From a virus: 21,890 bases of DNA. The notes beneath the pieces were generated by a model. It worked only from the letters and a program-made list of their open reading frames with translations, was not told the DNA's origin and did not search any database. The translations under genes and the position numbers were made by a program. Shown here one piece after another: positions 200 to 20,527 of this stretch (position 1 is the first letter of the stretch; each line of letters begins with the position of its first letter). The stretch is from positions 1 through 21,890 of IMG/VR virus record IMGVR_UViG_3300007871_000121; one strand, given 5' to 3'.

Positions 200-1186
200 T
201 CAGGGCTCGACGTTGACCGAGTAGGCCAGCGCGGTCGCTGGAATGTGCTCGATCTCTGCGTCCACACGGCAGGTCACGATGAAGCTCGTCACGCCCTCGC
301 GCGGGTCGCGGTAGGTCTCGAACTTGACCATTCGGCGGTATCCGGCCAGCAGGTTGAGTCGGTGACTCAGTAGGATCTCGCTGGTATCCGGCGCACCTGC
401 CGCGATGTCGAGGATCGAAACGGGCTTGATGAGAACACCCTGATACTTCAGGGGTCGCTCGCCCTCCAGCATCTGGTCACCCAGTGGGGTGCCCCGAGCC
501 GTCAGGTTGTCCCGATACTTCTCCTCGAGTCGGGCCGGCACGTAGAACCGCATGTTGGCCTTGTCCTTCTTGAAGCGGTCAGCCAGGCTCGCGAGCAAGG
601 TGCTGAAGATTGCCTGGTAGTCCTGGGCGTCGGCGGTGGCGTCGTAGTCATTGGCGCCCGTACCGTCCTTGGCAACCTCAAACCAGCCATCCAACAGACC
701 TAGGTACGCATCGGTACCCACGACTGCCGTATCGCCGTTGATCAACAGCTCCTCGATGTCGCGTCCCACACGCTCTGCGATCAGAGTGGTGAGCGTGTCA
801 CTGAAGCCGGCTCGCTCGACCTGGTCCTCGAGGACCTCGTCGGTGATCGGAACCTCACCGCGAATCAGCGAAGTGCTGATCTCGATGATGCCCGTAGTCG
901 GCTTGGCGCGGCCGGTGCCTGCCGTGGTTGCGTCGTAGGCATCCACCAGGCGCACACCCTCGACACCGGCACGCATGATGCGACTGCCGAAGTCAAGCTT
1001 GGACTCCTGCCACTTGTTGGAGTTGCTCATGACCGTGCGTACGTCCGGCAGCATCGCCTGAGCGTCGATGGCCACGCGGTAGAACTTAGCGACCTGCTCA
1101 ATGCTGAGCGGTGCCTCGCCTCCGCCGCCAAAGTCGTCAAGACTCAGCGTTGCCTTGCGCAGCAGCTCTTCGTTGTTGAGAGCCAT
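200..1186 (-). CDS. Major capsid protein, HK97 fold
   Basis: This 328-residue protein builds the icosahedral head shell. The length is typical for HK97-fold capsid proteins. The central stretch with EVPITDEVLEDQVE followed by LIAERVGRDIEELLINGD is the hallmark of this family: an E-loop/spine-helix region in which subunits carry a paired acidic helix. The C-terminal part is beta-rich, with VTSFIVTCRVDAEI. There is no long N-terminal delta domain of the HK97 type, consistent with a separate scaffold gene just upstream. The start is ATG at 1186, with AAGGAGG ten bases before it. The gene follows two acidic scaffold-like genes. The family is assigned by motif and context. Confidence 0.88.
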   Translation of the reverse strand: MALNNEELLRKATLSLDDFGGGGEAPLSIEQVAKFYRVAIDAQAMLPDVRTVMSNSNKWQESKLDFGSRIMRAGVEGVRLVDAYDATTAGTGRAKPTTGIIEISTSLIRGEVPITDEVLEDQVERAGFSDTLTTLIAERVGRDIEELLINGDTAVVGTDAYLGLLDGWFEVAKDGTGANDYDATADAQDYQAIFSTLLASLADRFKKDKANMRFYVPARLEEKYRDNLTARGTPLGDQMLEGERPLKYQGVLIKPVSILDIAAGAPDTSEILLSHRLNLLAGYRRMVKFETYRDPREGVTSFIVTCRVDAEIEHIPATALAYSVNVEP

Positions 1187-2338: not shown

Positions 2339-2347
2339 CTCGGTACC

Positions 2348-2378
2348 ATTATACTACACATGAACGCATAATGGACAA
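2348..2378 (-). promoter_or_regulatory. Candidate promoter of the scaffold-capsid genes
   Basis: The minus strand has a perfect TATAAT at 2353-2348. The best upstream hexamer is TTGTCC (2378-2373), at a long 19-base spacing, so the -35 match is weak. The box follows a strong terminator and precedes the scaffold-capsid genes, which supports a fresh start of transcription. The predicted start point is only a few bases before the ATG at 2338, which would make the mRNA nearly leaderless. Confidence 0.5.
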
Positions 2379-2390
2379 AAACTAGGCAGG

Positions 2391-2428
2391 CAAAAGAAAA
2401 GCCCTCCCGGGGGTCAGCCGGAAGGACT
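2391..2428 (-). terminator. Strong rho-independent terminator of the accessory/lysis block
   Basis: On the minus strand AGTCCTTCCGG pairs with CCGGGAGGGCT (11 pairs, two of them G-U) around a seven-base loop, followed by TTTTCTTTTG. It lies 31 bases after the stop of the C2H2-like gene at 2459 and before the TATAAT box at 2348, so it separates the accessory/lysis transcript from the capsid transcript. Confidence 0.85.
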
Positions 2429-2458
2429 CTTCGGAGGTGTGGCGGTAGCTCAAATGGG

Positions 2459-2695
2459 CTATGCTATGGGGGCAGCCTCGCACTGTTTCAGAGTAGCAGT
2501 AAGCTTGTGCGAGATCCGCAGGTGGTCCTTCAATGAAGCCAGCGCGTAAGCCACGCTCGTGATCGACAGGATGCTAATCCTACACTGAGGACAGAACACC
2601 CGATAGGCTGTCACAGGCCCGGTCTTCACCGAGACCTGCTCTTCGTGAACTATGATGTCAGCTGAAAAGTCATGTAGCTCCGGAGGCTCAAACAT
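2459..2695 (-). CDS. Small C2H2-type zinc-finger-like protein
   Basis: This 78-residue protein has C35-x2-C38-x19-H58-x4-H63 (FCPQC, then DHLRISHK), a plausible single zinc site of the C2H2 kind. The spacing between the Cys and His pairs is longer than in classical fingers, with a hydrophobic helix between them. The start chosen is ATG at 2695, which overlaps the stop of the upstream gene by eight bases and has GGAGG five bases before it; upstream ATG codons lack a comparable site. It is the last gene before the terminator at 2391-2428. Function is unknown; nucleic-acid binding is only a guess from the finger. Confidence 0.7.
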   Translation of the reverse strand: MFEPPELHDFSADIIVHEEQVSVKTGPVTAYRVFCPQCRISILSITSVAYALASLKDHLRISHKLTATLKQCEAAPIA

Positions 2696-2882
2696 TGGTG
2701 CCTCCATTCTTACCCGGGCGAATCTTCTTGGCCGTCGCCACAAGGAAAGCTGTTTCCGCCTTGATCTTGTTAGCCTTGGCCATGATGTACTGGTTCACCG
2801 CGCCCAGCAAACTCAGCGAACCCAGAAACGTGATCAAGGCCGCGGCGCCCATGGCGAGTTGGATAAAGATGTTGTCTAACAT
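2688..2882 (-). CDS. Small membrane protein, holin candidate
   Basis: This 64-residue protein has one clear membrane segment near the N-terminus (about residues 6-33: IFIQLAMGAAALITFLGSLS and on) and a basic, hydrophilic C-terminal tail (KKIRPGKNGG). This is a holin-like or antiholin-like shape, though a single span and no sequence signature make that inference only. The start is ATG at 2882, with GGGGAGG eight bases before it. It follows a 3D-domain cell-wall protein and a 26-residue hydrophobic peptide, which together look like a lysis group. Other small phage membrane proteins would look the same. Confidence 0.68.
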   Translation of the reverse strand: MLDNIFIQLAMGAAALITFLGSLSLLGAVNQYIMAKANKIKAETAFLVATAKKIRPGKNGGTNV

Positions 2883-2977: not shown

Positions 2978-3450
2978 TGTGCCCTCCCGATGAATGTCAC
3001 CGGTGCCCAGTTACCGAGTCTAGTCAAGAGCTCCCAGCCCTCCGCGTCAAACTCGACCCAGACATCGATGTGATCACCGTGTACCTTTCCTCCCGTGTCG
3101 CCACAGAGGTACCGCACGCCGGCCAACTCTAGTATGTATTCACGGTACGCAGGATCACAGGCCGCCATGCCCGGACCGACATCGTAACCCCACTTGGTGA
3201 TGCCTCGTCCACCCGAACCTTCCTCCCAGGAGTAGAAGGACACGTAGAAGGTACGAATGGTACCGGCGAGAGGAATCGAACCTCCAATCTTCGGATTAAG
3301 AGTCCGCTGCTCTGCCAATTGAGCTACGCCGGCATCCTCTTCCATTATAACAGATGTAGGTGTAGGACCACTTGTCGGAATTGCCATGGGCCCGGTAGCA
3401 AACATACTGGTGACCCAGACAATCAGCGCAACGATGATCTTAAGTATCAT
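2974..3450 (-). CDS. Exported 3D-domain cell-wall protein with embedded tRNA
   Basis: This 158-residue protein begins with a signal-peptide or membrane-anchor segment (residues 1-19, MILKIIVALIVWVTSMFATG) and a Pro/Thr-rich linker. Residues 68-154 match the 3D domain, a double-psi barrel named for three Asp residues: D99 in AACDP, D118 in GDTGG and D129 in HIDVWV. 3D domains occur in lytic transglycosylases and other peptidoglycan-acting proteins, so a role in lysis or wall remodelling is likely. Residues 40-64 (VAQLAEQRTLNPKIGGSIPL in part) are the translation of a complete tRNA-Lys gene lying in frame inside this gene. No alternative start with a ribosome binding site was seen after the tRNA, so the open frame may be translated whole, or the N-terminal part and the domain may be separate remnants. 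Confidence 0.72.
   Translation of the reverse strand: MILKIIVALIVWVTSMFATGPMAIPTSGPTPTSVIMEEDAGVAQLAEQRTLNPKIGGSIPLAGTIRTFYVSFYSWEEGSGGRGITKWGYDVGPGMAACDPAYREYILELAGVRYLCGDTGGKVHGDHIDVWVEFDAEGWELLTRLGNWAPVTFIGRAQ
3258..3333 (-). tRNA. tRNA-Lys (anticodon CTT), CCA encoded
   Basis: A complete cloverleaf can be folded. The acceptor stem is GCCGGCG/CGCCGGT (first pair G-U), the D stem GCTC/GAGC with loop AATTGGCA, the anticodon loop CTCTTAA, the variable region AGATT, the T stem GGAGG/CCTCT and the T loop TTCGATT. The discriminator is A and CCA is encoded. The anticodon CTT reads lysine AAG codons, which are frequent in this phage. The one defect is a G27-A43 mismatch at the end of the anticodon stem. 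A perfect TATAAT lies 11-16 bases upstream. The gene sits inside the reading frame of a 3D-domain protein. Confidence 0.95.
3344..3372 (-). promoter_or_regulatory. Candidate internal promoter for the tRNA
   Basis: TATAAT at 3349-3344 ends ten bases before the 5' end of tRNA-Lys, placing transcription start a few bases upstream of the tRNA. The hexamer at the ideal 17-base spacing is AGTGGT, a poor -35 match. The box lies inside the protein reading frame (codons for V-I-M), so chance cannot be excluded. Confidence 0.4.
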
Positions 3451-3458
3451 GGCGCTAC

Positions 3459-3692
3459 CTACATCTCAAGCGTGTACCTACCCGGGTGCTGCATGCACTC
3501 GCGTAAATGACCGCGTTCCATCTCGCGTAGCATAACACCAAACCCCATACGCGCGACGTACTCCCCCTTGTTGAGGATGACCTCGCCGTCCTCACGTGTC
3601 ATCGGAAAGCGATGGCCACGCCCGAGCTTCGATCGTCTGATCGCTTGCTGCGCCGTGGTCGCCATCTCCTTGGGACTCAAGCACTCATGCAT
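3459..3692 (-). CDS. Unknown 77-residue basic protein
   Basis: No family is recognised. The protein is basic, with Arg/Lys spread throughout, four Met in the second half and no membrane segment. Two Cys (C4 and C66) are isolated and do not form a metal site. It begins with ATG at 3692 after a weak GGGG site ten bases upstream, follows the 57-residue gene with a nine-base gap and precedes the 3D-domain gene by eight bases, so it is part of the same transcript. Confidence 0.6.
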   Translation of the reverse strand: MHECLSPKEMATTAQQAIRRSKLGRGHRFPMTREDGEVILNKGEYVARMGFGVMLREMERGHLRECMQHPGRYTLEM

Positions 3693-3701
3693 CTCGTGCC
3701 C

Positions 3702-3875
3702 CTACTTGGCCAGCTTGCACGTCCGGGATTCGATCCACTTGAACTTCTCGAGCTCAAAGTCCCAGACGAGAAACTCGGCGCGGAACGGTCCACCATAGTG
3801 CACCGCAAACACGTCATAGAGATGGGCCTCGTCCGTGCCCTTGACCTCTTGCGTCACCTTGAATAGGACTGCCAT
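3702..3875 (-). CDS. Unknown 57-residue protein
   Basis: The product alternates hydrophobic and charged residues (VLFKVTQEVKGTDEAHLYDV, then FRAEFLVWDFELEKFKWIES). That pattern suggests a small beta-sheet domain, ending in a basic CKLAK tail. The start chosen is ATG at 3875, with GGGAGG eight bases before it; a GTG three codons upstream lies on the ribosome binding site itself. No family is recognised and no function is proposed. Confidence 0.62.
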   Translation of the reverse strand: MAVLFKVTQEVKGTDEAHLYDVFAVHYGGPFRAEFLVWDFELEKFKWIESRTCKLAK

Positions 3876-3904
3876 TGAACACACCTCCCGTGTTAGACTA
3901 TACC

Positions 3905-4603
3905 CTAGCCGGCCAACGCCACGCCCTCTGTGAACGCCTGGTGATACTTACTGGGCAGACGCTTGACAATGCGGTCGGGGAATTGCCGCCGACCCAACAC
4001 GAACCCGTACTCGATGAAGAGCCAGAGCAGCGCATTGCTGTTGACATAGTGCGCGCCCTCAGTCGCCGTGTCCACCACAGGTCGGACGTCCGCGAAGTAC
4101 AATGACCGCAGCTCATCCTCGCTCACCATGAAACGCAGGCGCAGTGAGACGTACCACTTGCGGTCAGGGTCGTCAGAGACATCCTCGATGTAGAGCCCCT
4201 CGTGAACCTGTGGTAGGCGCGTGACCGCAGTCTCTTGATACCGGTCGCGGAAGTCCTCCTCATAAGTGGTAGGCACCTCAGCAGAGAGCATACCGCGTAC
4301 TGCCAAGAATCCCATGGTCTGAACCAGCTCCGAGTCCAGGGCATACTTGTTGGAGCGCACACGCTCCTTGGCCTGCCGCCGCAGCATCGCGCTTACCTTA
4401 GGCCGCCACGGGACTGCCGGCACTGGCAAACGGTTCTCAATGATCTGCCGCTGCACTGACTCGGTAAGGACCTGGGTCTCACCCGTCTTGTCACCGCTCA
4501 GGTACTTGGCCAGGAACTTCTCGCCCGGGAGCCGCTGCTTGACAACATACTCACCAAACCGGTTGCGGAACCGGTGTCCCTCATTGAACTCAATCGGTCC
4601 CAT
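3905..4603 (-). CDS. Unknown 232-residue protein
   Basis: The start chosen is ATG at 4603, preceded by AAGGAGA at good spacing; the frame is open further upstream but that part overlaps the previous gene. The N-terminal 45 residues (FNEGHRFRNRFGEYVVKQRL and on, with a Gly-Asp turn) look like a small barrel. The middle is helical and basic (MLRRQAKERVRSNKYALDSE), and the C-terminal half is mixed, with WYVSLRLRFMV. It is one of the larger accessory proteins in the block. No catalytic motif was found and no family is recognised. Confidence 0.72.
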   Translation of the reverse strand: MGPIEFNEGHRFRNRFGEYVVKQRLPGEKFLAKYLSGDKTGETQVLTESVQRQIIENRLPVPAVPWRPKVSAMLRRQAKERVRSNKYALDSELVQTMGFLAVRGMLSAEVPTTYEEDFRDRYQETAVTRLPQVHEGLYIEDVSDDPDRKWYVSLRLRFMVSEDELRSLYFADVRPVVDTATEGAHYVNSNALLWLFIEYGFVLGRRQFPDRIVKRLPSKYHQAFTEGVALAG

Positions 4604-4814
4604 CGTCTGTCTCCTTTCGCGTGCGCCGCCGCTCGGCCTTGCGCTCGATCTTGCGCTTCGCCAGGTAGTCATCGAGCTCGGCCATCGGCACGTTTACCAC
4701 CCGTCCGTCAAGCTCGTGACAGGGAACGACCGTGCACGAGTTCAGGTACCGCATGGATTCGTCACTGGTCGGACTAATCCTCCGAGCGTACCATCCTGGC
4801 TCTATTGCTGCCAT
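4590..4814 (-). CDS. Unknown 74-residue basic protein
   Basis: It starts with ATG at 4814, with a strong GGAGGTG seven bases upstream, and overlaps the next gene by 14 bases, suggesting translational coupling. A segment RVVNVPMAELDDYLAKRKIE is followed by a highly basic helix (ERKAERRRTRKE) and an acidic tip. The basic tail could bind nucleic acid. No family is recognised. Confidence 0.66.
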   Translation of the reverse strand: MAAIEPGWYARRISPTSDESMRYLNSCTVVPCHELDGRVVNVPMAELDDYLAKRKIERKAERRRTRKETDDGTD

Positions 4815-4825
4815 CGTGACACCTC

Positions 4826-5041
4826 CTACCTAACTATACCTCTCGCCCGCAGCTCCTCGCCGATTGCATTGGCTGCCTTTGCGGCCTGCTGACAGATATT
4901 CATCCGTCGCGCATAGCAGCGCGGACAACCCAGCCGCGGATGCCAACAACCCTCACAGAAGACATGCCAGCACTGACCGCACACCCGGGTCACGGGCTTC
5001 TTTCCGTCACCACACCATTGACACGTGTTGCTCCAACCCAT
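4826..5041 (-). CDS. 71-residue RING-like zinc protein
   Basis: The first 42 residues carry C7-x2-C10-x13-C24-x-H26-x2-C29-x2-C32-x6-C39-x2-C42. That fits the C3HC4 RING spacing exactly and ends in the typical C-P-x-C. C21 is an extra Cys, so two separate zinc ribbons (C7/C10/C21/C24 and C29/C32/C39/C42) are an alternative reading. The remaining 29 residues form one Ala-rich helix. The ATG at 5041 shares one base with the stop of the upstream gene (TGATG). RING domains are mostly eukaryotic ubiquitin-ligase modules; in a phage this may be convergence of a small treble-clef or zinc-ribbon fold. Function is unknown. Confidence 0.72.
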   Translation of the reverse strand: MGWSNTCQWCGDGKKPVTRVCGQCWHVFCEGCWHPRLGCPRCYARRMNICQQAAKAANAIGEELRARGIVR

Positions 5042-5412
5042 CAGGCCCTAACCTTCGCTTCCCAGAACCGGCACTGTTGCTCAATATGCGTGGGCACGGG
5101 ACCGGTCTCGTGCTCGTCGTACCATGTCAGCGCCTTCGTCTGCCAATGCGCGCACTTCGCCGACGCCGCGTGATACTCGTCGTGCGACAACTCGGGCGGC
5201 CCATAGGCCAGGTAGTGCTTATAGTAGTCACACTCGTGACGGTCGCACACGTTCAACTTCGCGATCAGCTCGAGTACCTCTTTGTATCCTCTCACCTTAC
5301 CACGCTCGTGCGCCACCTCTTCGGCATCCCCGAACGAGTGATAGTCGTTCTCGAGCCGATCCTCTAGATTGGCCAGCCGCTCCTCGAGCTGTTCCTTCAG
5401 CACACTAAACAT
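5041..5412 (-). CDS. Unknown 123-residue coiled-coil protein
   Basis: The start chosen is ATG at 5412, with GAGGAGGG five bases upstream; it overlaps the stop of the previous gene by eight bases. The first 25 residues form a heptad-like helix (LKEQLEERLANLEDRLEN). A second helix follows, then a region with Cys and His (CDRHECDYYKHY, a Cys before HW, a late QQC). This could bind a metal but lacks regular spacing. No family is recognised. Confidence 0.68.
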   Translation of the reverse strand: MFSVLKEQLEERLANLEDRLENDYHSFGDAEEVAHERGKVRGYKEVLELIAKLNVCDRHECDYYKHYLAYGPPELSHDEYHAASAKCAHWQTKALTWYDEHETGPVPTHIEQQCRFWEAKVRA

Positions 5413-6045: not shown

Positions 6046-6363
6046 CTATGCCTCCTTCTCTGCTTTGCAGATCGGGCACCATCGCGCCCGTCCCCTACCG
6101 TGTCGCTTCATGTGACTCTCGAACTTCCGCGCTTCCCAAATGCTGTCGAACTTCCACACGCGAGCCAGCCGCCAAGTGATTCCCGCCTCGGTGATGACCT
6201 TCATCAGCCGGGCTCCGCTACCCCGGGCGTGCTGCTCGAGCCGGACCTTGAGATTCGTGGTGCTGCCCAGGTAGTGGCGTGCGTGCTTGTAAGGCGTGTC
6301 GAAGTGGATAAGGTAGACCACATTCCTCGTGGCTCGGCTGTTGGGTCGACTGGCTATTTGCAT
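6046..6363 (-). CDS. GIY-YIG family nuclease-like protein
   Basis: This 105-residue protein matches the GIY-YIG fold. VVYLIHF (15-21) and HYLGST (30-35) are the two signature strands. R41 in NLKVRLEQH is the expected catalytic Arg. E82 in ARKFESHMK is the expected metal-binding Glu, and C96-x2-C99 at the C-terminus may bind zinc. The size is that of a stand-alone nuclease domain without a DNA-binding partner, like UPF0213/YhbQ-type proteins or a stripped homing endonuclease. The first strand reads VYL instead of GIY, a common variation. The ATG at 6363 overlaps the preceding stop as TAATG. Confidence 0.82.
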   Translation of the reverse strand: MQIASRPNSRATRNVVYLIHFDTPYKHARHYLGSTTNLKVRLEQHARGSGARLMKVITEAGITWRLARVWKFDSIWEARKFESHMKRHGRGRARWCPICKAEKEA

Positions 6364-7959: not shown

Positions 7960-8444
7960 GACTTCAGACCTCCTCTGTGAATTATGATATCTCCCCAGCC
8001 AAGCTTGGTCGCCGCCCTGAGTGCTGCCCGGTCAGCTTCGACCTCGCTGAACTGCCGAGACCATTTGCCAGTAAACTTTCCAGCACGCAGGACCGCCCGC
8101 CACTTGGCGGATTGCACGACGTGGGCAGCCTCATGCGCTAGGGTGAGTGCCCAGACCTGCAGCGGAGTCAAGCCGTTGATGATGAACGTACAGCGTTGGC
8201 GGCGGTATGAGGAATAGGTGCGCCGTGACTCATTGTAGACGACCTTGGCATCTGCCAACACGCGCTGACCGCACACCTTGTAGGGACAACGCGCGCCGCC
8301 CTTGCTGAGTCGTCCGTACCGGGTCACGAGCGCTGTCCGACCTCGTGTAGCCCGGCGCAACCGAGCCGCGGCGAGCACGTCACTGGCGATCAAGGAGAAC
8401 TCGTGCTTGAGACTCTCAAGCTCCGGGTGCATGACTAGCTTCAT
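7956..8444 (-). CDS. HExxH zinc-metalloprotease-like protein
   Basis: The start chosen is ATG at 8444 (GGAG six bases upstream, ATGA overlap with the previous stop), giving 162 residues. The centre holds HEAAH at 104-108 (TLAHEAAHVV), and FSEVEADRAA at 132-141 supplies a candidate third ligand (E134 or E136) in the manner of many zincins. C53 and C58 could form an extra site or a disulfide. The N-terminal part is a basic helix. The size and single domain resemble small SprT-like or M78-like peptidases used by phages. The substrate is unknown. The longer open frame upstream of the chosen start is low-complexity Arg-rich sequence overlapping other genes. Confidence 0.75.
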   Translation of the reverse strand: MKLVMHPELESLKHEFSLIASDVLAAARLRRATRGRTALVTRYGRLSKGGARCPYKVCGQRVLADAKVVYNESRRTYSSYRRQRCTFIINGLTPLQVWALTLAHEAAHVVQSAKWRAVLRAGKFTGKWSRQFSEVEADRAALRAATKLGWGDIIIHRGGLKS

Positions 8445-10850: not shown

Positions 10851-13553
10851 TTACTCGGGAAATTTCTTCCGCCGGGCCACGCCACCCATGCTGTATCCAC
10901 GCAGCTTGCCCGCCTTGATCAGCTTCCAGCCGAGCTCGTTCCACACGACGCCCATGAACACGCTGTTAGCCGGAATGACGTGCGTCTTAGCGCTGCCGCC
11001 CGGCAGCTTCATCTTGATCGTCACCTCGAACGGCCATGACACGATGTCGACCCACTCGCCGATGACCTTCATGCCGCCGGTGACCAGCCCGTGCTGGAGA
11101 TAGATGTTCCGGTCGTTGGAACGCACGTACTGCCACTGCGCATCCTGCAGCACATCGCCCGTGACAGCCTCACCGTGCGCGTCAAAGTCAGGGTCCTCGA
11201 GCTGCTCGTCCGTCGCCTTGTAGAGGATGCCGAACGTATAGTGCTTCTCATCCTCGGCCTTAATGAACTTCGTGTACAGCTCGCACGTCTCGCCCGCGCA
11301 GCTAGCCATCACCCGAGGCTCTTCGTTGCCACCCTGCTGTTCAATCTCTCGCAGATGCGCCTTGGCCTCTTCCTCGGTATCGAACTCCCCGAGCTTCTTC
11401 GTACCGGTGCGGTCGTAGATCACCCACTTGTCACCTTCGCGCCGGATCATCTTGGCGAGGATGCTGGCAGCCTTCCGCGCCGGCCAACCCTGGCTCGCCT
11501 CACCGTCCGTGATCCGCTGCTCCGCGTTGACGTCGTCGCCGTTCTCCTTCTTCCAGACCGCGTAACAGTCATCACAGAACCAGGCGTGTCCGCGTCCCTC
11601 AGCCCACAGGACCTCAACGGTTGGCGTGGCCACGCAGTTCATGCACTTGTCGCGCCGCGGCATGGCCTTGGTCGCCGGCTGCTTGCCCGAGTTCAGAACA
11701 TCGTCGATCCACATTCGCACGAGCCGGTTGACCTCAAGGAACGACTGCTCCTCGACATCGGCCGGCAGGTGCGCGAACAGAGAGTTTATCTCGGTGTCAC
11801 TTAGCACGCGCCCGACAAAACCAGTGGCGAGATCAGCAACGCCCTTGCTGAACTTCTCGGACGTCTCCGTCAACACACCGAAGCGTCGGCACCGTGCGAT
11901 GGCCTGCTCGAGCGTGTGGGGATCGTGGTCCTTGTCCAGCGCTAATGGAATCGGCTTGCTCCAGATGACGGTCCCGTCCCGGTGAAGCGTCAGTCCCATG
12001 ATCTCAACGGTCAGTGTGTCGCCCGTTTCGGCTAGCTGAGTCTTGCTCGCGATCGTCTTGCCGAGCGGGAAGACCGGCTTGCCGTCGAGCTCCTCGAGTG
12101 CGGCCAGCTCAGATCCCTCCGGCACGCGCAGACCGCACAGGTAGATGTAACCGTCGTCGACCTTTGCGACCTCGAGTACCGCGACCTTAAGCTCGGCCGT
12201 TCCCTTCTGCATCGGTCGGCCTACCCGGGCCATCGCTGCCGAGCGCACCAAGAACGTGTCACCGTCCCGACCGAACTCGCCAAACGATGCTGTCTCTCCC
12301 TTGTCAAGCGCGCGAAGAGTGGACCGTCCGATGTGTGCGAAGACCAGTCGCTTGACTCCACGCTCCTTGGCCTGCTCGGCGATCGTCGTCACCATGTCCC
12401 AGCTCGCAGCCTCCGCGAACATGAGGTCGGCGCCGTCCGCCCACCCCGGGAACTCCTTGAACGACGGAGCCCACGCGACCTTGCGTCCGTCCGTCGTGAT
12501 GAGGTAACCCCAGGCATCGCCCGCAGCACCGTGTATCAGTCGCGGCTCGATGGTCGTGCTGTCGGCATAGAAGACACCGACCATCGCCTCGACTCCACGG
12601 TCCTCGGCCAGCTTGCGGATCTTCGCGATTGACGCGCTGTGGTCGTCCGTCACCAGCCACGCGTCGAGGTTTCCCTTGGGTGGATTTGCTTCGCCGCCGT
12701 CGAGCATAATGCGCCTACCGGCATGCTCAATCAGCAGGCCCGCCGGCTTATAGCGCAGCATCCTCGTCGAACCCACACCCATGAGCGTAAAGCGCAGACT
12801 AACAGCCTTGACCAGGTGAGCCTCATTGTCAGCCTCACGCAGCACCAGATCAAAGACAGGGACATAGGGACCGTCGTGGGGACCCTGTGGATTGAATGAC
12901 AAGTGTAGTCCCTTGCCGGTATCTCCCGGGTCGAGCAGGTGCTTGACCAGCGTGAACACGCTCTCATCCCAATACTTCGGCTGGTCGATGTCATCCCGCA
13001 CTAGGATGTTGAAGTCGCGCGCGTCCTCCCAGTTCCGACTGACCGCGCTGCCCACGATTGACACGTAATCGGGTATGAGTACCAGGTCACGTTGCTTCTT
13101 GACGTTGCTGAGCTTCAGCGGGGTGAGGTGCTTCATGCCGCGCCGCTTGAGCTCGGTCACGATCTCCTTGTGCGCAGCTACGACCGCTTCTGTCGGCTTC
13201 ATCGCGTGCAGCGCACGGTGCGCTAGGAACAGCTCGCCGCCGCTGATCTTCTTGAGCTTCTCCGACGTGACGTCCACTAGCTTGACCTTGACCTTGACCG
13301 TCTTCTCCTCGTCAGCGTCCGATGCCGGCTCGAACTCGATGGGCTCATAGTCATGCTCGTCGAGCCACTTCTTCGCTTCCTTGACCGTGAACTTCGTCTT
13401 GTCAAAGCGGATGGACAGAACCTCAGCCTTACCGTCTTCGGTCACGCCGAAGATGGCGTCGATGCCGGGACCGAACTTGTCGTTCACCCGCCGGACTCTC
13501 TTGTACTTACCGGGGTCGTTCATCCTGGCTGAGTGCTCGTTTGGATACGGCAT
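10851..13553 (-). CDS. XkdF-type head protease polyprotein with four inserted regions
   Basis: This 900-residue protein starts with PYPNEHSARMNDPGKYKR (residues 2-19) and a WLDEHDYEP stretch typical of the N-termini of phage putative-protease proteins. It ends (770-900) in an XkdF-like domain (YTFGILYKA; WVDIVSWPFEVTIKMKLPGG; GKLRGYSMGGVA), a presumed capsid maturation protease. Between them lie a nucleotidyltransferase-like region (about 85-245, GSAVSRNWEDARDFNILV) and a metallo-beta-lactamase-like region (256-435). In the latter, LDGG is kept but the metal motif is reduced to TDDHSAS (302-308). An OB-like region (about 452-560, GDTLTVEIMG and DKDHDPHTLEQAIAR) recalls the C-terminal domain of ATP-dependent DNA ligases. 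A C637-x2-C640/C660-x2-C663 zinc site and a WVIYDRTGTKKLGEFDTEEE module follow. The start is ATG at 13553 after GGAGGAG. Domain calls other than XkdF are inferred from motifs. Confidence 0.75.
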   Translation of the reverse strand: MPYPNEHSARMNDPGKYKRVRRVNDKFGPGIDAIFGVTEDGKAEVLSIRFDKTKFTVKEAKKWLDEHDYEPIEFEPASDADEEKTVKVKVKLVDVTSEKLKKISGGELFLAHRALHAMKPTEAVVAAHKEIVTELKRRGMKHLTPLKLSNVKKQRDLVLIPDYVSIVGSAVSRNWEDARDFNILVRDDIDQPKYWDESVFTLVKHLLDPGDTGKGLHLSFNPQGPHDGPYVPVFDLVLREADNEAHLVKAVSLRFTLMGVGSTRMLRYKPAGLLIEHAGRRIMLDGGEANPPKGNLDAWLVTDDHSASIAKIRKLAEDRGVEAMVGVFYADSTTIEPRLIHGAAGDAWGYLITTDGRKVAWAPSFKEFPGWADGADLMFAEAASWDMVTTIAEQAKERGVKRLVFAHIGRSTLRALDKGETASFGEFGRDGDTFLVRSAAMARVGRPMQKGTAELKVAVLEVAKVDDGYIYLCGLRVPEGSELAALEELDGKPVFPLGKTIASKTQLAETGDTLTVEIMGLTLHRDGTVIWSKPIPLALDKDHDPHTLEQAIARCRRFGVLTETSEKFSKGVADLATGFVGRVLSDTEINSLFAHLPADVEEQSFLEVNRLVRMWIDDVLNSGKQPATKAMPRRDKCMNCVATPTVEVLWAEGRGHAWFCDDCYAVWKKENGDDVNAEQRITDGEASQGWPARKAASILAKMIRREGDKWVIYDRTGTKKLGEFDTEEEAKAHLREIEQQGGNEEPRVMASCAGETCELYTKFIKAEDEKHYTFGILYKATDEQLEDPDFDAHGEAVTGDVLQDAQWQYVRSNDRNIYLQHGLVTGGMKVIGEWVDIVSWPFEVTIKMKLPGGSAKTHVIPANSVFMGVVWNELGWKLIKAGKLRGYSMGGVARRKKFPE

Positions 13554-14600: not shown

Positions 14601-15566
14601 TCACTCCTGCGGTGGAAAGAGTTCCATGGGTGGAAGCCAGCCTCTAGTGTCGGCTCCGATATCGCATCGACAGTTAGGATGAAACGGTGGGTGCATGCCG
14701 TGACCGCCGAAGTCCCGGGTCACGTCAGTCCAACCCATGCTCGCCGCGTCTTGACAAAACGAACACACGGGTGAGATGGCCGCGACCGGTGACTTGGCCG
14801 CAGTTAGTACTCGACGCGCCTTGATACCGTTGCGCTCCATGACGGTCTGCGCCGTAATACCGTAGGACCGGGCCGTCTCGGTTCGTGCGATCTGCAAAGC
14901 CTTCCACTTCGTGATGTCCTTCAACCTAGACTGTACTCCCTTCGTCGCCTGTGCGATCGTCATGGGCCTGCGGGGATCCGTCGCTTCGACCAGAAGGTCA
15001 GCCACGTTGACCGCATGCTCAGCAGCCGCATCGGCGAGCATCGACTCAACTTGCTTCGCGAGTTCAGGGAACAGTTGCTTCCAAGATGCTGCGGCGTCCT
15101 CCCACACGATCTCACTCGGCAGACCCAGCCCACCGAGCGCCGCCGATGTCGCGGTCTCCGCCGCGCCGGCCAGCGTGTCAATGAGTTCCGCGGGCGAGAT
15201 GTCCATTGCGCCAGCAACCAGATCCTCAAGCGCTTTACTCACCTGCGCCGTGATGGTTGGAATCGCACCCGGGGGCAGAATCGGCTTGTCCTGCTTTGCC
15301 AACTCGGTCGGGTCGACCAAGATGTGCGGCGCCCACAACCTGCGCGACGCGATGATCAGTCCGCGCATCGGCAATGACTCATCCATGTGTATCATAAACC
15401 GCGCAGCCTCTCGTGTGATCTGTCGCTCAACCTTGCGCCGCTTTAGGTACTCGAGGTACCACTTGGCCTGCGGCGTTCGACTGGCCTTCCAGAGCCACTG
15501 AAGGTGCTGGTGCAGATCGAACAGCTGTCCCCTGAACTTATTCGTCCTCGTGCGTCTCACCGCCAA
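14601..15566 (-). CDS. MuF-type minor head protein
   Basis: This 321-residue protein carries the Phage Mu gpF-like domain at its C-terminus: WKALQIARTETARSYG (221-236), then C268-x2-C271 in CSFCQDA and HPPFHPNCRCD (292-302). The Cys and His residues form the conserved metal-binding end of the family. MuF proteins sit at the portal vertex inside the head and help assembly or are injected with DNA. The N-terminal half is helical. The likely start is TTG at 15566, with GAGGAG seven bases upstream, overlapping the portal end by 29 bases; GTG two codons later is the alternative. There is no toxin domain after the MuF domain. Confidence 0.87.
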   Translation of the reverse strand: MAVRRTRTNKFRGQLFDLHQHLQWLWKASRTPQAKWYLEYLKRRKVERQITREAARFMIHMDESLPMRGLIIASRRLWAPHILVDPTELAKQDKPILPPGAIPTITAQVSKALEDLVAGAMDISPAELIDTLAGAAETATSAALGGLGLPSEIVWEDAAASWKQLFPELAKQVESMLADAAAEHAVNVADLLVEATDPRRPMTIAQATKGVQSRLKDITKWKALQIARTETARSYGITAQTVMERNGIKARRVLTAAKSPVAAISPVCSFCQDAASMGWTDVTRDFGGHGMHPPFHPNCRCDIGADTRGWLPPMELFPPQE

Positions 15567-17070
15567 GTGCCGACTCCTCTACTTCCTCGTGTAGCATACG
15601 CATCAGCTCGTCCACGGCCTCAAGTCGCTGAATGACCTCCTCGGTCATCACCATTCCCTGTGGGTTGTCGGCCGTCGCGGCAGCCATCACCGCTGGGCTC
15701 GCGCCGTGCTCGGTCATGAACTCCTGTAGCGTCATGTCCAACCCGTCACGCGACTCCATGCCCAACCGCTCACGTCCTTCGTTCAGTGTCATGAGGTTGA
15801 TCTTGATCTGCTCCGCAACAACCTTGGTGTCCATCATCTCGTCCGAGAGATCCATGTCCTCGAGAGTGATCTTCCAAGACGGCTTCTGTGCCGCTTCCGT
15901 CCCCTGTGCCTTCGGATATTCCACACCGAGGAAGCGGTTCAACCGGTCGGCCAACACTGACTGCCCGGGGGCGATCACGCCGTTCTTATAGGCAAAGATA
16001 ATGTCCGCCGTGACACTGCCACCCAGGCTACCGCGCGTCACAAAACCCAACCGGTCAGGCGGCATACGATGCGCAATGAGAATGTTGCGATCGGTCAGCT
16101 CCAACAGCCGTGTGAAATGCAAGTCATTCTGCGGAAGCGCCATGCTCTTGATGACCACCTCGACTTGATCGCCTCCCAGCGCTAGCAGCAAGTTACGGTG
16201 AGGATCCGATCCTGCACCGTGCTGTGTCTTGAGTTCCCCCTCCAAGTCTTCCAGCAGGGCGTCAACCTTCTCCTCGTTCACGCCGCTGATCACGATCATG
16301 TGACGTGGCTCTCGGGCGTTGCTGAAGAACTTGATATTGAAATCCCGGGCCGCGATGGCCAGCGTGATGTGTCCAAGTGCAGCAATATAGGTCGGAATGC
16401 CATACCATGTGCTTCGACGAGACGGCTTGCGGAACACGAGGAACTCATTGGCCAACTTGTCGTGGCCCACGCTCTCCCAAGCCTGTCGACCGTCACTCGC
16501 TAGGATCTGTTCCGGCATGGCGTTCCAACGCTTGAACCACACGACCTTGCCGTGACGCATCTGTACGAAACGCTTATTGTCCTGGTGAGCGCGAACGGTG
16601 TGCGCCGGCACATGCCACATCTTCTTGATGACACCACTCGGATCGCGCCCGAGCTCGAGCACTCCCCAGCCGACCGTCTCATAGTCAAGCCACATAGCGT
16701 TGAGGATCTCGATGAGGGTCGCCTCAGCAGCCAGCCCGTCCAGCCATTCTAGGATCGCGTCCTTGATCTCATCGTTAGCGTCGTCTTCGGTCGGTTCAAG
16801 CTGAATACCCGAAGCAATGACATCCAATGCCTTCTGTTCAAGCGCCGCCGCATGCACTGGATGTGATTCGGCCAACAGCACGAGCTGTTCCATCGAGTAA
16901 GGTGGCTTGCGCACGAGCGTACCGTAGGCTGACACGCCCGCGAACGGGTCCTCGGTCAGCTGCTTGGACCGCACCTCGTCGTCCGGCCACGTGGCAGCCT
17001 TCCCGGTAGGACCAAACCAGATCGCCTTGGCCAATCGCGTCCGGCCCTCTTCCTCACCTTGCTTCGCCAT
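15538..17070 (-). CDS. Portal protein
   Basis: This protein of about 510 residues forms the dodecameric ring through which DNA enters and leaves the head. It has the PBSX/HK97-like portal pattern: an early helical part (AAALEQKALDVIASGIQLEP), a middle beta domain (WHVPAHTVRAH; FVQMRHGKVVWFK), a long helix with NIKFFSNAREPRHMIVISG, and the wing-stem motif near AHRMPPDRLGFVTRGSLGGS. The C-terminus is acidic (EEVEESALGGETHEDE). The start chosen is ATG at 17070, two bases after the previous stop, with GGAG before it; a GTG three codons earlier overlaps that stop. It lies between the terminase and the MuF protein as expected. Confidence 0.87.
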   Translation of the reverse strand: MAKQGEEEGRTRLAKAIWFGPTGKAATWPDDEVRSKQLTEDPFAGVSAYGTLVRKPPYSMEQLVLLAESHPVHAAALEQKALDVIASGIQLEPTEDDANDEIKDAILEWLDGLAAEATLIEILNAMWLDYETVGWGVLELGRDPSGVIKKMWHVPAHTVRAHQDNKRFVQMRHGKVVWFKRWNAMPEQILASDGRQAWESVGHDKLANEFLVFRKPSRRSTWYGIPTYIAALGHITLAIAARDFNIKFFSNAREPRHMIVISGVNEEKVDALLEDLEGELKTQHGAGSDPHRNLLLALGGDQVEVVIKSMALPQNDLHFTRLLELTDRNILIAHRMPPDRLGFVTRGSLGGSVTADIIFAYKNGVIAPGQSVLADRLNRFLGVEYPKAQGTEAAQKPSWKITLEDMDLSDEMMDTKVVAEQIKINLMTLNEGRERLGMESRDGLDMTLQEFMTEHGASPAVMAAATADNPQGMVMTEEVIQRLEAVDELMRMLHEEVEESALGGETHEDE

Positions 17071-17072
17071 CG

Positions 17073-17513
17073 TTACCACTCCAGTCTCGCGCTCGCCCTG
17101 ATGTTGTACATCGTCCTGATGTTCCAGACCATGATCGCGGCGTCACCTCGGACGATCGGATTGGTGAAGCTTACCTCACCTTGCTTAACCGCAACGTAGG
17201 TCGATATCGGTCGAAACTCAATCAGACCTGCCGGCCCATCAACGTCGATATCGACATATAGATACAGATGTCGCGGTCCGCTTCGTCGCCATCTCACTTC
17301 CCATTGTATCACACGGATCGCCGAGTGGGAAGATCGACGATTAACCCGCCGCACAGCACGCGCAACCTCCTGTCTAACCAACCCCGCAGTCTCATAGACG
17401 GCGCCCGTACCCCGGCGCAACCCCAATACCACCTCGCGGCGGGTGCGGCCGTCCTGGGTCGTCATCCAACGCCCCCGTCGACTCTTGCTCAAAATGTCAC
17501 TCCAGGCTGACAC
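17073..17513 (-). CDS. Unknown 146-residue protein before the portal
   Basis: The likely start is GTG at 17513, one base after the previous stop; ATG at 17465 is an alternative. The N-terminal half is very basic (LVRQEVARAVRRVNRRSSHS). The C-terminal half is beta-rich (LYLYVDIDVDGPAGLIEFRP; AAIMVWNIRTMYN). It has no Cys. The position between methyltransferase and portal suggests a structural or packaging role. No family is recognised. Confidence 0.66.
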   Translation of the reverse strand: MSAWSDILSKSRRGRWMTTQDGRTRREVVLGLRRGTGAVYETAGLVRQEVARAVRRVNRRSSHSAIRVIQWEVRWRRSGPRHLYLYVDIDVDGPAGLIEFRPISTYVAVKQGEVSFTNPIVRGDAAIMVWNIRTMYNIRASARLEW

Positions 17514-17709: not shown

Positions 17710-18206
17710 AGCTGGTCTCCCCATGCGGCCCACCCCGGGCGCGCTCGCCTAGCGAACAGCTCGAGATAGGGACCGTTGAACATTCGCTCCGCGATGTCAT
17801 ACAGCTCTTCAGGCTTGTGCGAGTGGTCCTGCACGGGCGCGAAGAACCAGGACGGTTGCGAACGAAACTTGACCTCCGGCCGACCGCGCGTTCCCAGGAG
17901 AATCAGCTCGTGTGACGACCTGAAGTAGTGACCCATGCCCATCCGCGGCTTGACCCACACGGCCATCGTCTTGTAGTTGAATCCCCAGGCTTCCATTACA
18001 CGCAGCCCGTCGTTGACCATCGCGCTCGGACACCAGAGCAACAGCACGCAGTCCGGCAGCGCGAAGCGCTCGACCGGCAGCTGACAGATTTCATCCAACG
18101 CCATGGTGTCATAGAAGCGACTAAGTCGCCGGTTCGGCGTTCCCCGATCCCTGAATGCCCAGGGCGGGTCCGCCATGATAACTCCGAATCCTAACTGTAG
18201 CATCAT
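17706..18206 (-). CDS. MT-A70 family DNA N6-adenine methyltransferase
   Basis: This 166-residue protein has the catalytic DPPW at 13-16 (IMADPPWAF), the TMALDEICQLP helix, LLLWCPSAM, and the SAM-pocket motif HELILLGTRG. The C-terminal signature is HSHKPEELYDIAERM, then LELFARRARPGWAAWGDQL. These are the features of the MT-A70/phage adenine methyltransferase family, which methylates adenine N6 in DNA and protects phage DNA from host restriction. No target-recognition domain is present, which is usual for this short family. It overlaps the nuclease gene upstream by four bases (ATGA). Confidence 0.9.
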   Translation of the reverse strand: MMLQLGFGVIMADPPWAFRDRGTPNRRLSRFYDTMALDEICQLPVERFALPDCVLLLWCPSAMVNDGLRVMEAWGFNYKTMAVWVKPRMGMGHYFRSSHELILLGTRGRPEVKFRSQPSWFFAPVQDHSHKPEELYDIAERMFNGPYLELFARRARPGWAAWGDQL

Positions 18207-18694
18207 GTCAATCCCTTTTGCCCAAGGTCATCGTCGGTCAAGTGAATCACCGCGACAACGCCCCGGTCCACGAGATACGCGTCACGATAAGCCTCGCGTT
18301 CCTTATCTTGATGATGATGCCAATACATACCATCCGCCTCGAACACGAGCCCGTGACTCAACACGAAAGCATCGACCACATAGCGACCGAAGCGTACCTG
18401 CTCCTGAAAGTCGAAGCCGGCTATCTGGAGTAACTGACATAGGGCCAATTCCAATGACGACTGTTTGCAGTAGCCGCGAAGTACTCTCCTAGCCGCAGAG
18501 ATCGACATCTTCAGTCTCGAGGCCGCATTGGGCCTGATGCCCATTGGCCTCGTATGCGGATGTGGCTTGCCCTTGTGCGTCCGCGACATCCGTCGCCGTG
18601 TCTCAGCCGAATGCTTATGCCCAGTAAACCGCGTGGACCTCGCCCGAGCATCCTGAGACCAAGGATCATTTTGAGAAAACTGACGCCCACGCAT
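18203..18694 (-). CDS. Vsr-like (EDxHD) endonuclease with NUMOD3 repeats
   Basis: The start chosen is ATG at 18694, two bases after the terminase stop; a longer frame from 18766 overlaps the terminase end. Residues 24-43 (TGHKHSAETRRRMSRTHKGK) form a NUMOD3 DNA-binding module, and residues 55-70 look like a second, weaker one. From residue 79 the protein is Vsr-like: E82 in SSLELALCQLL, D108 in YVVDAF, EADGMYWH (119-126), D138 and a final strand AVIHLTDDDL. This arrangement is that of EDxHD homing endonucleases (I-Bth0305I type). It lies directly after the terminase gene, a common homing target, and its stop overlaps the methyltransferase start. Confidence 0.82.
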   Translation of the reverse strand: MRGRQFSQNDPWSQDARARSTRFTGHKHSAETRRRMSRTHKGKPHPHTRPMGIRPNAASRLKMSISAARRVLRGYCKQSSLELALCQLLQIAGFDFQEQVRFGRYVVDAFVLSHGLVFEADGMYWHHHQDKEREAYRDAYLVDRGVVAVIHLTDDDLGQKGLT

Positions 18695-18696
18695 AA

Positions 18697-20112
18697 TCAA
18701 ACCCGTATTATCTTGTGCGGCATCGCGCCGCGCTTCACGTGATAGCGACCCGAGCAGATCTGCCAAGCCAACGCCAAAGCGACCAGCTCGTCCGGCGAAT
18801 GTCCCTTGCCATAGAGGTCGTCCTTGAGCACATACCGGTGAACAGACATCAACGATGCCATACGCGGTAGCACAATCTCTTGCTTATCCACCGCCGTCTC
18901 GTAGTCGATGAACATCTTGTTCTTGTTGGATCCGGTGATAATGAAGTCCTCGACCTTCTTGCCCACGATGTAATGAGCCACCACGTCACCCAGACCGGTT
19001 GCATCATGAATTCCCTTGCCCGGGTAGCGCTCAAGTCTCGTGTTGAACCGCCCGATCAATCGCGGCCACGGCTCACGGTACCGGCGCTCAATAGCGACCA
19101 ACCGCGCCGGTGTGCAATCATGCCGTATCGTCACAATGACCGTCAAGTCTCGCTTCCGCGCCCAGTCAGCAGCGGTCACATAATCCGCATCCTTCTTGGG
19201 CTTCTCCAGTTCGTAGTATTCGTTGATGTGATCCTCAAGACGTCGACCCGCAAAGAGATGACGCAACATCGACTCATTGAAGACCGAGCCGCCCTCGACC
19301 GGCGTCTCCAACTCATACTCAACGCGCCACATGGAGTCAGAAACCTCGGTACGCTTACGCTCAACCTCCGACATCGGTAGCCAGCTCCCGGGGTTGTCAT
19401 CATGCTCCACGACCTCGCGCCAACACCAGCGACGGACCGGCCAACCGCGCTCAACCGCGCGCTTGAGAAGTGTGGTCATCGTACCTGACTCGTGCTGGTG
19501 CGTTGAGGCCAGCACCGTCTGCGCCGGCCGTGTCGGATCGGTTGTCAACGTCTGGCCCATCGCGGCGTCCATGATCCGTTCGTCCATCTCGTCGACCTCG
19601 TCAAGTCGCAGCCTGTGAGGGTGAGGACCACGAGCCGACCGCTGTGATGCTGTCAGAGCTCGAATCCAGTTACCACGCAGCATCTTGGTCCGCCATGATC
19701 CGATGTCACCGTCAACGAAAGTCTCCGCCGTAATCACCGGTTGCGTCGGATCCTCAGGTTGGATCTCGTGCCGCCACGCCGCCGCCATCGACTCGTGCAC
19801 CCGGCGCGATTGCTCGCCCGAGCCACCAAGGACCGTGCAGTTATACTCAGCCAGCGCCTCGAGACTGGCGAGCGCAGCCAGCATTACGGTCTTGCCCGAC
19901 CCTCGTGTTGCGAGCCAGATAATGATGGGATACTGCGCGAAGTACGCCTCGGTCAACGCATCAAATGGTGAGATGTGACCGTCACAGCACGCGCACTCTG
20001 GGAACGTCAGACCGAAGGCGTTCTTCAGAACCTGCTTTAGCTTCTCCTGATCGCCGTCTCTGATGTCCCAGTTGTTCGGCTTCCAATATTCATCGTTCGA
20101 AGTCGAGTCCAT
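18697..20112 (-). CDS. Terminase large subunit
   Basis: The DNA-packaging motor has ATPase and nuclease parts. The start chosen is ATG at 20112, with GAGGAGAT at ideal spacing; an upstream Met in the same frame overlaps more of the RusA gene. Walker A is ATRGSGKT (68-75) and Walker B is RLRLDEVDEMD (acidic D171/E172). The RNase H-like nuclease acidic residues are D316 in TAADWARK, D370 in HDATGLGD and D441 in HSPDELVALALAW. The N-terminal Cys cluster (FPECACCDGH) could bind zinc. The length (471) suits a complete protein. No small terminase subunit was recognised in the window. Confidence 0.92.
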   Translation of the reverse strand: MDSTSNDEYWKPNNWDIRDGDQEKLKQVLKNAFGLTFPECACCDGHISPFDALTEAYFAQYPIIIWLATRGSGKTVMLAALASLEALAEYNCTVLGGSGEQSRRVHESMAAAWRHEIQPEDPTQPVITAETFVDGDIGSWRTKMLRGNWIRALTASQRSARGPHPHRLRLDEVDEMDERIMDAAMGQTLTTDPTRPAQTVLASTHQHESGTMTTLLKRAVERGWPVRRWCWREVVEHDDNPGSWLPMSEVERKRTEVSDSMWRVEYELETPVEGGSVFNESMLRHLFAGRRLEDHINEYYELEKPKKDADYVTAADWARKRDLTVIVTIRHDCTPARLVAIERRYREPWPRLIGRFNTRLERYPGKGIHDATGLGDVVAHYIVGKKVEDFIITGSNKNKMFIDYETAVDKQEIVLPRMASLMSVHRYVLKDDLYGKGHSPDELVALALAWQICSGRYHVKRGAMPHKIIRV

Positions 20113-20527
20113 TGATCTCCTCGAAGGGTTTGACGATGACCTTGACCCCCGGGTTGGCATCGGTGTAGAGCTTCATCGGAACCGCTCGAATCACCTGCGC
20201 GTCGTCAACATACAGCACCCCGGTCAACGCGTCGAGAATTGCCCGCAGGTACTTATCGACATCACCGTCATACCGCCCCCAGGGCAGTGGTCGCTTGACC
20301 GTCTTGGGTCTAGGCAGAAAGAACACGACGGTCACATCGAATCCACACGCAGCCAACGGTTCAGCGTCCCACTGTCGCTTGGCCTCATCATGCACGGCTC
20401 GTTGCCACGCCTTGAGGTGCTTTGGTCCCTTGAAGAAGATATTGCCCGTGGTCTTTGACTTGATGGCAGACCAAGAGCCCTTCGTCACGGGCTTCCCCGG
20501 GACCCAAAAGTTAAGCAGCACAGTCAC
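20090..20527 (-). CDS. RusA-type Holliday junction resolvase
   Basis: This 145-residue protein matches the RusA fold. FFLPRPKTVKRPLP (69-82) is followed by YDGDVDKYLRAILDALTGVL (86-105) and YVDDAQV (106-112). The Asp residues D89, D91 and D109 correspond to the metal-binding aspartates of RusA, which cleaves four-way DNA junctions as a dimer. Phages use it to debranch replicated DNA before packaging, in keeping with its position just before the terminase gene, which it overlaps by 23 bases. Start is GTG at 20527; a second GTG two codons later is possible because no strong ribosome binding site is seen. Confidence 0.9.
   Translation of the reverse strand: MTVLLNFWVPGKPVTKGSWSAIKSKTTGNIFFKGPKHLKAWQRAVHDEAKRQWDAEPLAACGFDVTVVFFLPRPKTVKRPLPWGRYDGDVDKYLRAILDALTGVLYVDDAQVIRAVPMKLYTDANPGVKVIVKPFEEINGLDFER

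Follow-up and report, generated by a model that had tools for sequence, protein, structure and literature searches.

The window analyzed here, the whole of a 21.9-kb record from an uncultured tailed phage, contains an uninterrupted 158-codon frame that runs straight through a complete tRNA-Lys gene on the same strand. The likeliest reading of the sequence, with chances put at about even, is that this frame is a real gene encoding an exported 3D (MltA/Sps-type) peptidoglycan enzyme, which would straddle a resident, functional tRNA-Lys gene. That ribosomes translate through the tRNA stretch is likewise put at about one half. Export of the protein, its enzyme activity, and competition between the two products are predicted.

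The minus strand carries the head genes of the window, and a block of small genes, tRNA-Lys(CTT) among them, separates the protease gene from the capsid gene:

18697-20160, minus strand: terminase
15538-17079, minus strand: portal
10851-13553, minus strand: protease
200-1186, minus strand: major capsid

In the 900-aa product of 10851-13553 (minus strand), the match to the XkdF-like protease (Peptidase_S78_2) was confined to the last 140 residues, and the long N-terminal part had no confident Pfam assignment. The minus strand also encodes two proteins of the homing-endonuclease type, a NUMOD3/DUF559 protein (18203-18766) and a GIY-YIG protein (6046-6363). In two relatives, L017 and L018, the NUMOD3/DUF559 gene is shortened or relocated beside the terminase end.

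Features in and around the frame are given below, with matches to L104 (IMGVR_UViG_3300031707_000094), the closest syntenic relative:

3702-3884, minus strand: upstream neighbor, 46% over 61 aa to L104 4915-5091
3459-3692, minus strand: 77-aa gene with coding bias, directly upstream of the 158-codon frame and without a homologue in L104
2974-3450, minus strand: uninterrupted frame of 158 codons, ATG to stop, through the tRNA (ORF list)
3334-3450, minus strand: codons 1-39, signal-peptide-like start and Pro/Ser/Thr linker (hydropathy, predicted helix)
3344-3352, minus strand: TGTTATAAT, an extended -10-like element inside the frame, 10 nt upstream of the tRNA
3258-3333, minus strand: tRNA-Lys(CTT), CCA encoded (ARAGORN, Rfam RF00005, cloverleaf)
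2989-3252, minus strand: 3D (MltA/Sps-type) domain, residues 67-154 (phrog_6631, hhalign, coding bias in frame)
3154-3156, 3097-3099, and 3064-3066, minus strand: 3D Asp residues D99, D118, and D129, respectively
2688-2882, minus strand: downstream small membrane-protein gene, 49% over 47 aa to L104 5339-5479, which comes directly after the L104 tRNA; its product is holin-like by its hydrophobic stretch only

ARAGORN found tRNA-Lys(CTT), on the minus strand, as the sole tRNA in the window, and the Rfam model RF00005 matched it with 69.1 bits (E = 2e-13). The two programs agree with the initial annotation, which had placed a complete tRNA-Lys with an encoded CCA at 3258-3333. The molecule has the attributes of a functional tRNA (a complete cloverleaf, anticodon, CCA, and a score above threshold), with a G.A mismatch topping the anticodon stem and G.U pairs at 1-72 and 49-65 as its blemishes. 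The gene is probably resident and functional, and its transcript would mature. In the surrounding frame, which was correctly reported as open across the tRNA (ATG at 3450 to 2974, 158 aa, uninterrupted by a stop), the tRNA covers codons 40-64 in full and extends one base into codon 65. Residues 40-64 are thus the translated tRNA, as had been claimed, and this stretch reads AGVAQLAEQRTLNPKIGGSIPLAGT. The remaining two frames of the tRNA carry stops.

An open frame across a tRNA is cheap and is no evidence alone, because 173 frames with an upstream start crossed a tRNA in a survey of 272 distinct phage tRNAs, a sample that was not random since a T-arm pattern scan had supplied most of its loci. 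False proteins are known to arise from ORFs over tRNAs, and that frames of this kind are common and usually spurious argues against a real gene (PMC9710616). Like spurious ORFs of the AntiFam type, the window frame includes a stretch ('GVAQLAEQRTLNPK..GGSIP') that is plain tRNA translation. It differs from them in having a signal-peptide-like start and a 3D domain that flank the tRNA in frame, and the AntiFam description of parts outside the tRNA as random does not apply to it. When the 173 frames were ranked by hydropathy, the window frame (2.93) and a frame in the relative L002 (2.92) came first, followed by a value of 2.39. No homologue of the whole fused protein was found in the phages, viral contigs, and related phage records searched, a point against a real gene. 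Among the titles and abstracts listed in literature searches, none described a tRNA within a translated phage gene.

Codons 1-39 translate to MILKIIVALIVWVTSMFATGPMAIPTSGPTPTSVIMEED. Upstream DNA was shuffled and scored in this frame for a basic residue near the N-terminus plus a 12-residue stretch with a hydropathy of at least 2.9, a threshold taken from the observed value; 0.00005 (ATG only) to 0.0004 of the shuffles matched. The signal peptide that had been annotated ahead of the tRNA is a prediction, and the occurrence of a signal-peptide-like start in exactly this frame argues for a real gene. Structure prediction without an alignment gave a mean pLDDT of 42, and the signal helix alone (residues 2-17, pLDDT 71 to 85) was confident. 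The position of the start codon, ATG 3450, 9 nt past the stop codon of gene 3459-3692 just upstream, also argues for a real gene. Against it stand a weak ribosome site at this ATG (-3.7 kcal/mol, when many neighbors have about -9 to -12) and the absence of codon bias in codons 1-39. For comparison, gene 1745-2338, which is conserved in relatives, has a ribosome site of only -2.8 kcal/mol.

Beyond the tRNA, a full 3D domain with all three Asp residues had been reported, and this was upheld. D99, D118, and D129 are in register with known 3D domains, with spacings of 19 and 11, and hhalign against three known 3D domains gave a probability of 95%. The Pfam model PF06725 scored 13.9 to 15.0 bits (E = 0.03 to 0.06), below its curated cut-off of 23.8, and the similarity therefore rests on hhalign and on a match to phrog_6631 (E = 4e-4). 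Codon bias is present in the 3D part, in frame, and counts toward a real gene. The initial annotation called the protein "lysis-type", a label that is an inference; many 3D proteins are wall-remodelling enzymes. No close relative of the 3D protein was found among the phages and viral contigs searched, and a PDB sequence search gave nothing useful. A tblastn search at a loose E-value returned 14 records, mostly Bacillus SPO1-like phages, with the same alignment coordinates; some are annotated as 3D or cell-wall-binding, and with E-values of 1 to 7 they are no proof by themselves. The 3D family profile had no match above the cut-off in related phage records and one sub-threshold match in the record of L005. 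The viral collection was also scanned for a tRNA T-arm followed by DTGG at the right distance, using an exact pattern that misses variants, and by translation none of the 52 loci obtained was a 3D gene.

The layout of the predicted protein resembles that of Sps/3D proteins with the SpsC arrangement (Bacillus subtilis YuiC, MltA superfamily), in which a signal peptide and a short linker precede one catalytic 3D domain, and this likeness is a further argument for a real gene (PMC4499186). YuiC also has three Asp residues (D129, D151, and the catalytic D162), spaced 22 and 11, so that the last two are 11 apart in both proteins (PMC4499186). The window protein differs in that its linker is encoded by a tRNA gene and its Pfam score is under the cut-off. 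The first strand of the domain matches that of 3D proteins from Bacillus phages (SPO1 group, phi18 gp066) and Psychrobacillus phage Perkons (FEVTFYS in those, FYVSFYS here), whereas those proteins have a long coiled-coil-like N-terminal part and their genes lack a tRNA.

The domain opens with RTFYVSFYS (KIFEVTFYS in Perkons) only two residues past the tRNA, which leaves no room for a normal start, and between the tRNA and the domain none of the in-frame starts has a ribosome site that could serve. A 3D domain without an ordinary start of its own, beginning at this point, again argues for reading the frame as one gene. Of all in-frame starts, the AUU of codon 59, which follows the GGAGG of the T arm, has the best ribosome site. 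Two products might then be made, the signal-peptide ORF being a small membrane protein in its own right and the 3D protein starting at this AUU with no export signal. No in-frame match to a ribosome site in the gene is stronger than GGAGG-TTCG-ATT (-8.7 kcal/mol), but GGAGG is standard T-stem sequence, AUU starts are very rare and weak, and a 3D enzyme without an export signal would need a holin; we regard two products as improbable. The earlier suggestion that the protein is translated through the tRNA keeps the backing, by sequence only, of the in-frame signal peptide, the lack of an ordinary 3D start, the domain opening two residues past the tRNA, and the ATG 9 nt after the upstream stop.

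Relatives were sought with several proteins. The capsid protein retrieved L002 (61%), L004 (64%), L005 (54%), and L083 (61%), the last being a contig binned as an Ardenticatenales MAG (Chloroflexota), and the gene before the scaffold gene retrieved L101 to L105; gene 3905-4672 as a query retrieved none. L104 and L004 have a common end sequence and appear to be parts of a single genome. In L104, homologues of 4826-5041, 4590-4814, and 3905-4672 come first, then the gene for a 557-aa exported protein and a homologue of 3702-3884, then tRNA-Lys, and last homologues of 2688-2954 and 2459-2743. The homologous tRNA-Lys thus lies between homologues of the same neighbor genes, but it is not within a long gene: it begins 16 nt past the stop of the upstream gene, with no TATAAT in those 16 nt, and the next gene follows about 87 nt beyond it. 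Neither a 3D gene nor a homologue of gene 3459-3692 is present at this locus. Among six records searched, the best matches to the window tRNA were the L104 tRNA (79 to 80%) and a tRNA-Lys in the tRNA array of the L002 phage (81%), with the Ardenticatenales MAG ranking behind them; the tRNA therefore belongs to this phage lineage. Because L104 carries a homologous tRNA in this position but lacks the 3D gene, the tRNA either held its place before the 3D gene came or is independent of it, and the proposal that a tRNA was inserted into a pre-existing 3D gene gains no support. L101 to L103 have a short interval with no tRNA at this place, and no tRNA was found on the available stretches of L105 and L083. 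The comparison of relatives proposed earlier turned up a tRNA without the 3D gene, in L104, and no 3D gene starting after a tRNA, since none of the relatives examined carries this 3D gene.

The conserved tRNA in L104, without a 3D gene, fits a somewhat unlikely alternative in which recombination at the resident tRNA put a start-less 3D fragment behind it. The shared frame would be luck, the upstream hydrophobic ORF a separate small gene or a remnant, and the 3D part not usefully made. The weak ribosome site and unbiased codons of the 5' end agree with such a chance fusion or dead gene; the prior for a shared frame is about one third, and frames across tRNAs are often open. This alternative is opposed by an intact 3D part, in which coding bias and all three Asp residues are present, and by an upstream ORF that supplies, in frame, exactly the export signal that such a domain requires. 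The initial idea of two remnants resembling one gene may also hold. An assembly chimera, with reads of two related phages, each with a tRNA at this place, joined within the tRNA so that the signal-peptide and 3D sides come from different molecules, seems highly improbable. The sequence comes from an uncultured fragment, and no DNA at this place is better conserved among the relatives than the tRNA, but both flanks match the L104 gene order, 76 nt is a short anchor for a join, and the product would need to make in-frame, functional sense.

A frame of similar build was found in L002 (IMGVR_UViG_3300035660_000005), which has no tRNA-Lys at this place; a lone tRNA-Pro (8230-8303) lies upstream of the same scaffold-side gene. 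It sits inside a 103-codon frame (locus 8069-8380) with a signal-peptide-like start (chance 0.00005) and a Pro/Ser/Thr/Ala-rich linker, and the ATG overlaps the upstream stop as TGATG. The two arrangements share the start, the linker, the in-frame tRNA, and the scaffold-side gene downstream, and a tRNA-Pro in a like frame argues for the window frame being a real gene. They differ in the tRNA, in the neighbors, and in the 3D domain, which was considered for the L002 ORF and rejected, as only about 24 codons follow the tRNA. Genes adjoining the tRNA-Pro are not homologous to those of the window, and common descent of both arrangements is therefore not established.

Other tRNAs and exported proteins were noted in the relatives. 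The L002 phage has an array of at least 18 tRNAs (L025 51-1580, minus strand), distant from the lone tRNA-Pro. In L016 (5966-6039) and L017 (3699-3772, plus strand), contigs nearly identical to the window phage, a tRNA-His lies between genes a few kilobases before the terminase gene. At L104 5147-5340 (plus strand), AGGAGG (5147-5152) stands right before the tRNA-Lys, and a GTG (5161), 8 nt further, opens a 59-codon frame that crosses the tRNA and whose hydrophobic tail overlaps the start of the next gene; it is possibly chance, or a third frame of the tRNA-crossing kind. L016 4966-5958 and L104 3249-4922 (both plus strand) encode predicted exported proteins with long Thr/Pro repeats and no Pfam match. 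Their C-terminal PNTGGGG or PNNGGGG, hydrophobic segment, and (in L016) basic tail resemble a sortase-type anchor.

The tRNA had also been credited with a TATAAT of its own. The hexamer is present 10 nt upstream, but TATAAT is not rare in the window (3 found, 1.2 expected), and no -35 box was called at this site. The longer TATAATGG occurs at only two sites in the window (0.10 expected; 1 of 100 shuffles gave two), before the tRNA and before gene 1745-2338, which suggests that the octamer may be a phage promoter motif. A transcript begun at the internal TGTTATAAT could cover the tRNA and the downstream genes but not the signal peptide. Ahead of gene 1745-2338, TATAATGG (2346-2353, minus strand) is preceded by a terminator-like hairpin (2396-2432, minus strand), and the matching place in L104 has a like hairpin and TGATACAAT. 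The capsid-side genes are therefore probably transcribed as a unit of their own.

If the frame is a real gene, translation would begin at ATG 3450 and yield first the signal peptide and the Pro/Ser/Thr linker; ribosomes would then read the tRNA stretch as further linker and enter the 3D domain. The tRNA would be made from the same strand, either from its own extended -10 promoter or by excision from operon RNA, and each RNA molecule would serve as tRNA or as 3D mRNA, never both. Bacterial tRNA genes normally stay clear of translated frames, since processing cuts RNA. Here RNase P would have access to a tRNA stem within the mRNA, a point against the real-gene reading, and it is plausible that tRNA processing would cut the 3D mRNA. 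This cut could itself have a use, a decidedly doubtful extension in which one RNA yields either a tRNA or an exported wall enzyme: RNase P cuts at the tRNA ends would destroy the enzyme mRNA, moving ribosomes would prevent tRNA folding, and the mutually exclusive outputs could time the appearance of the enzyme, with L002-type relatives using other tRNAs.

Were the frame fortuitous, the locus would show how convincing such fusions look and how the gene order of a relative helps to judge them. If it is a real gene, an exported enzyme that takes its linker from a tRNA would be a rare case of one strand doing double duty as tRNA and protein sequence. It would also warn that a blanket discard of ORFs over tRNAs can lose a real gene, and would show a phage gene built around a resident RNA gene.
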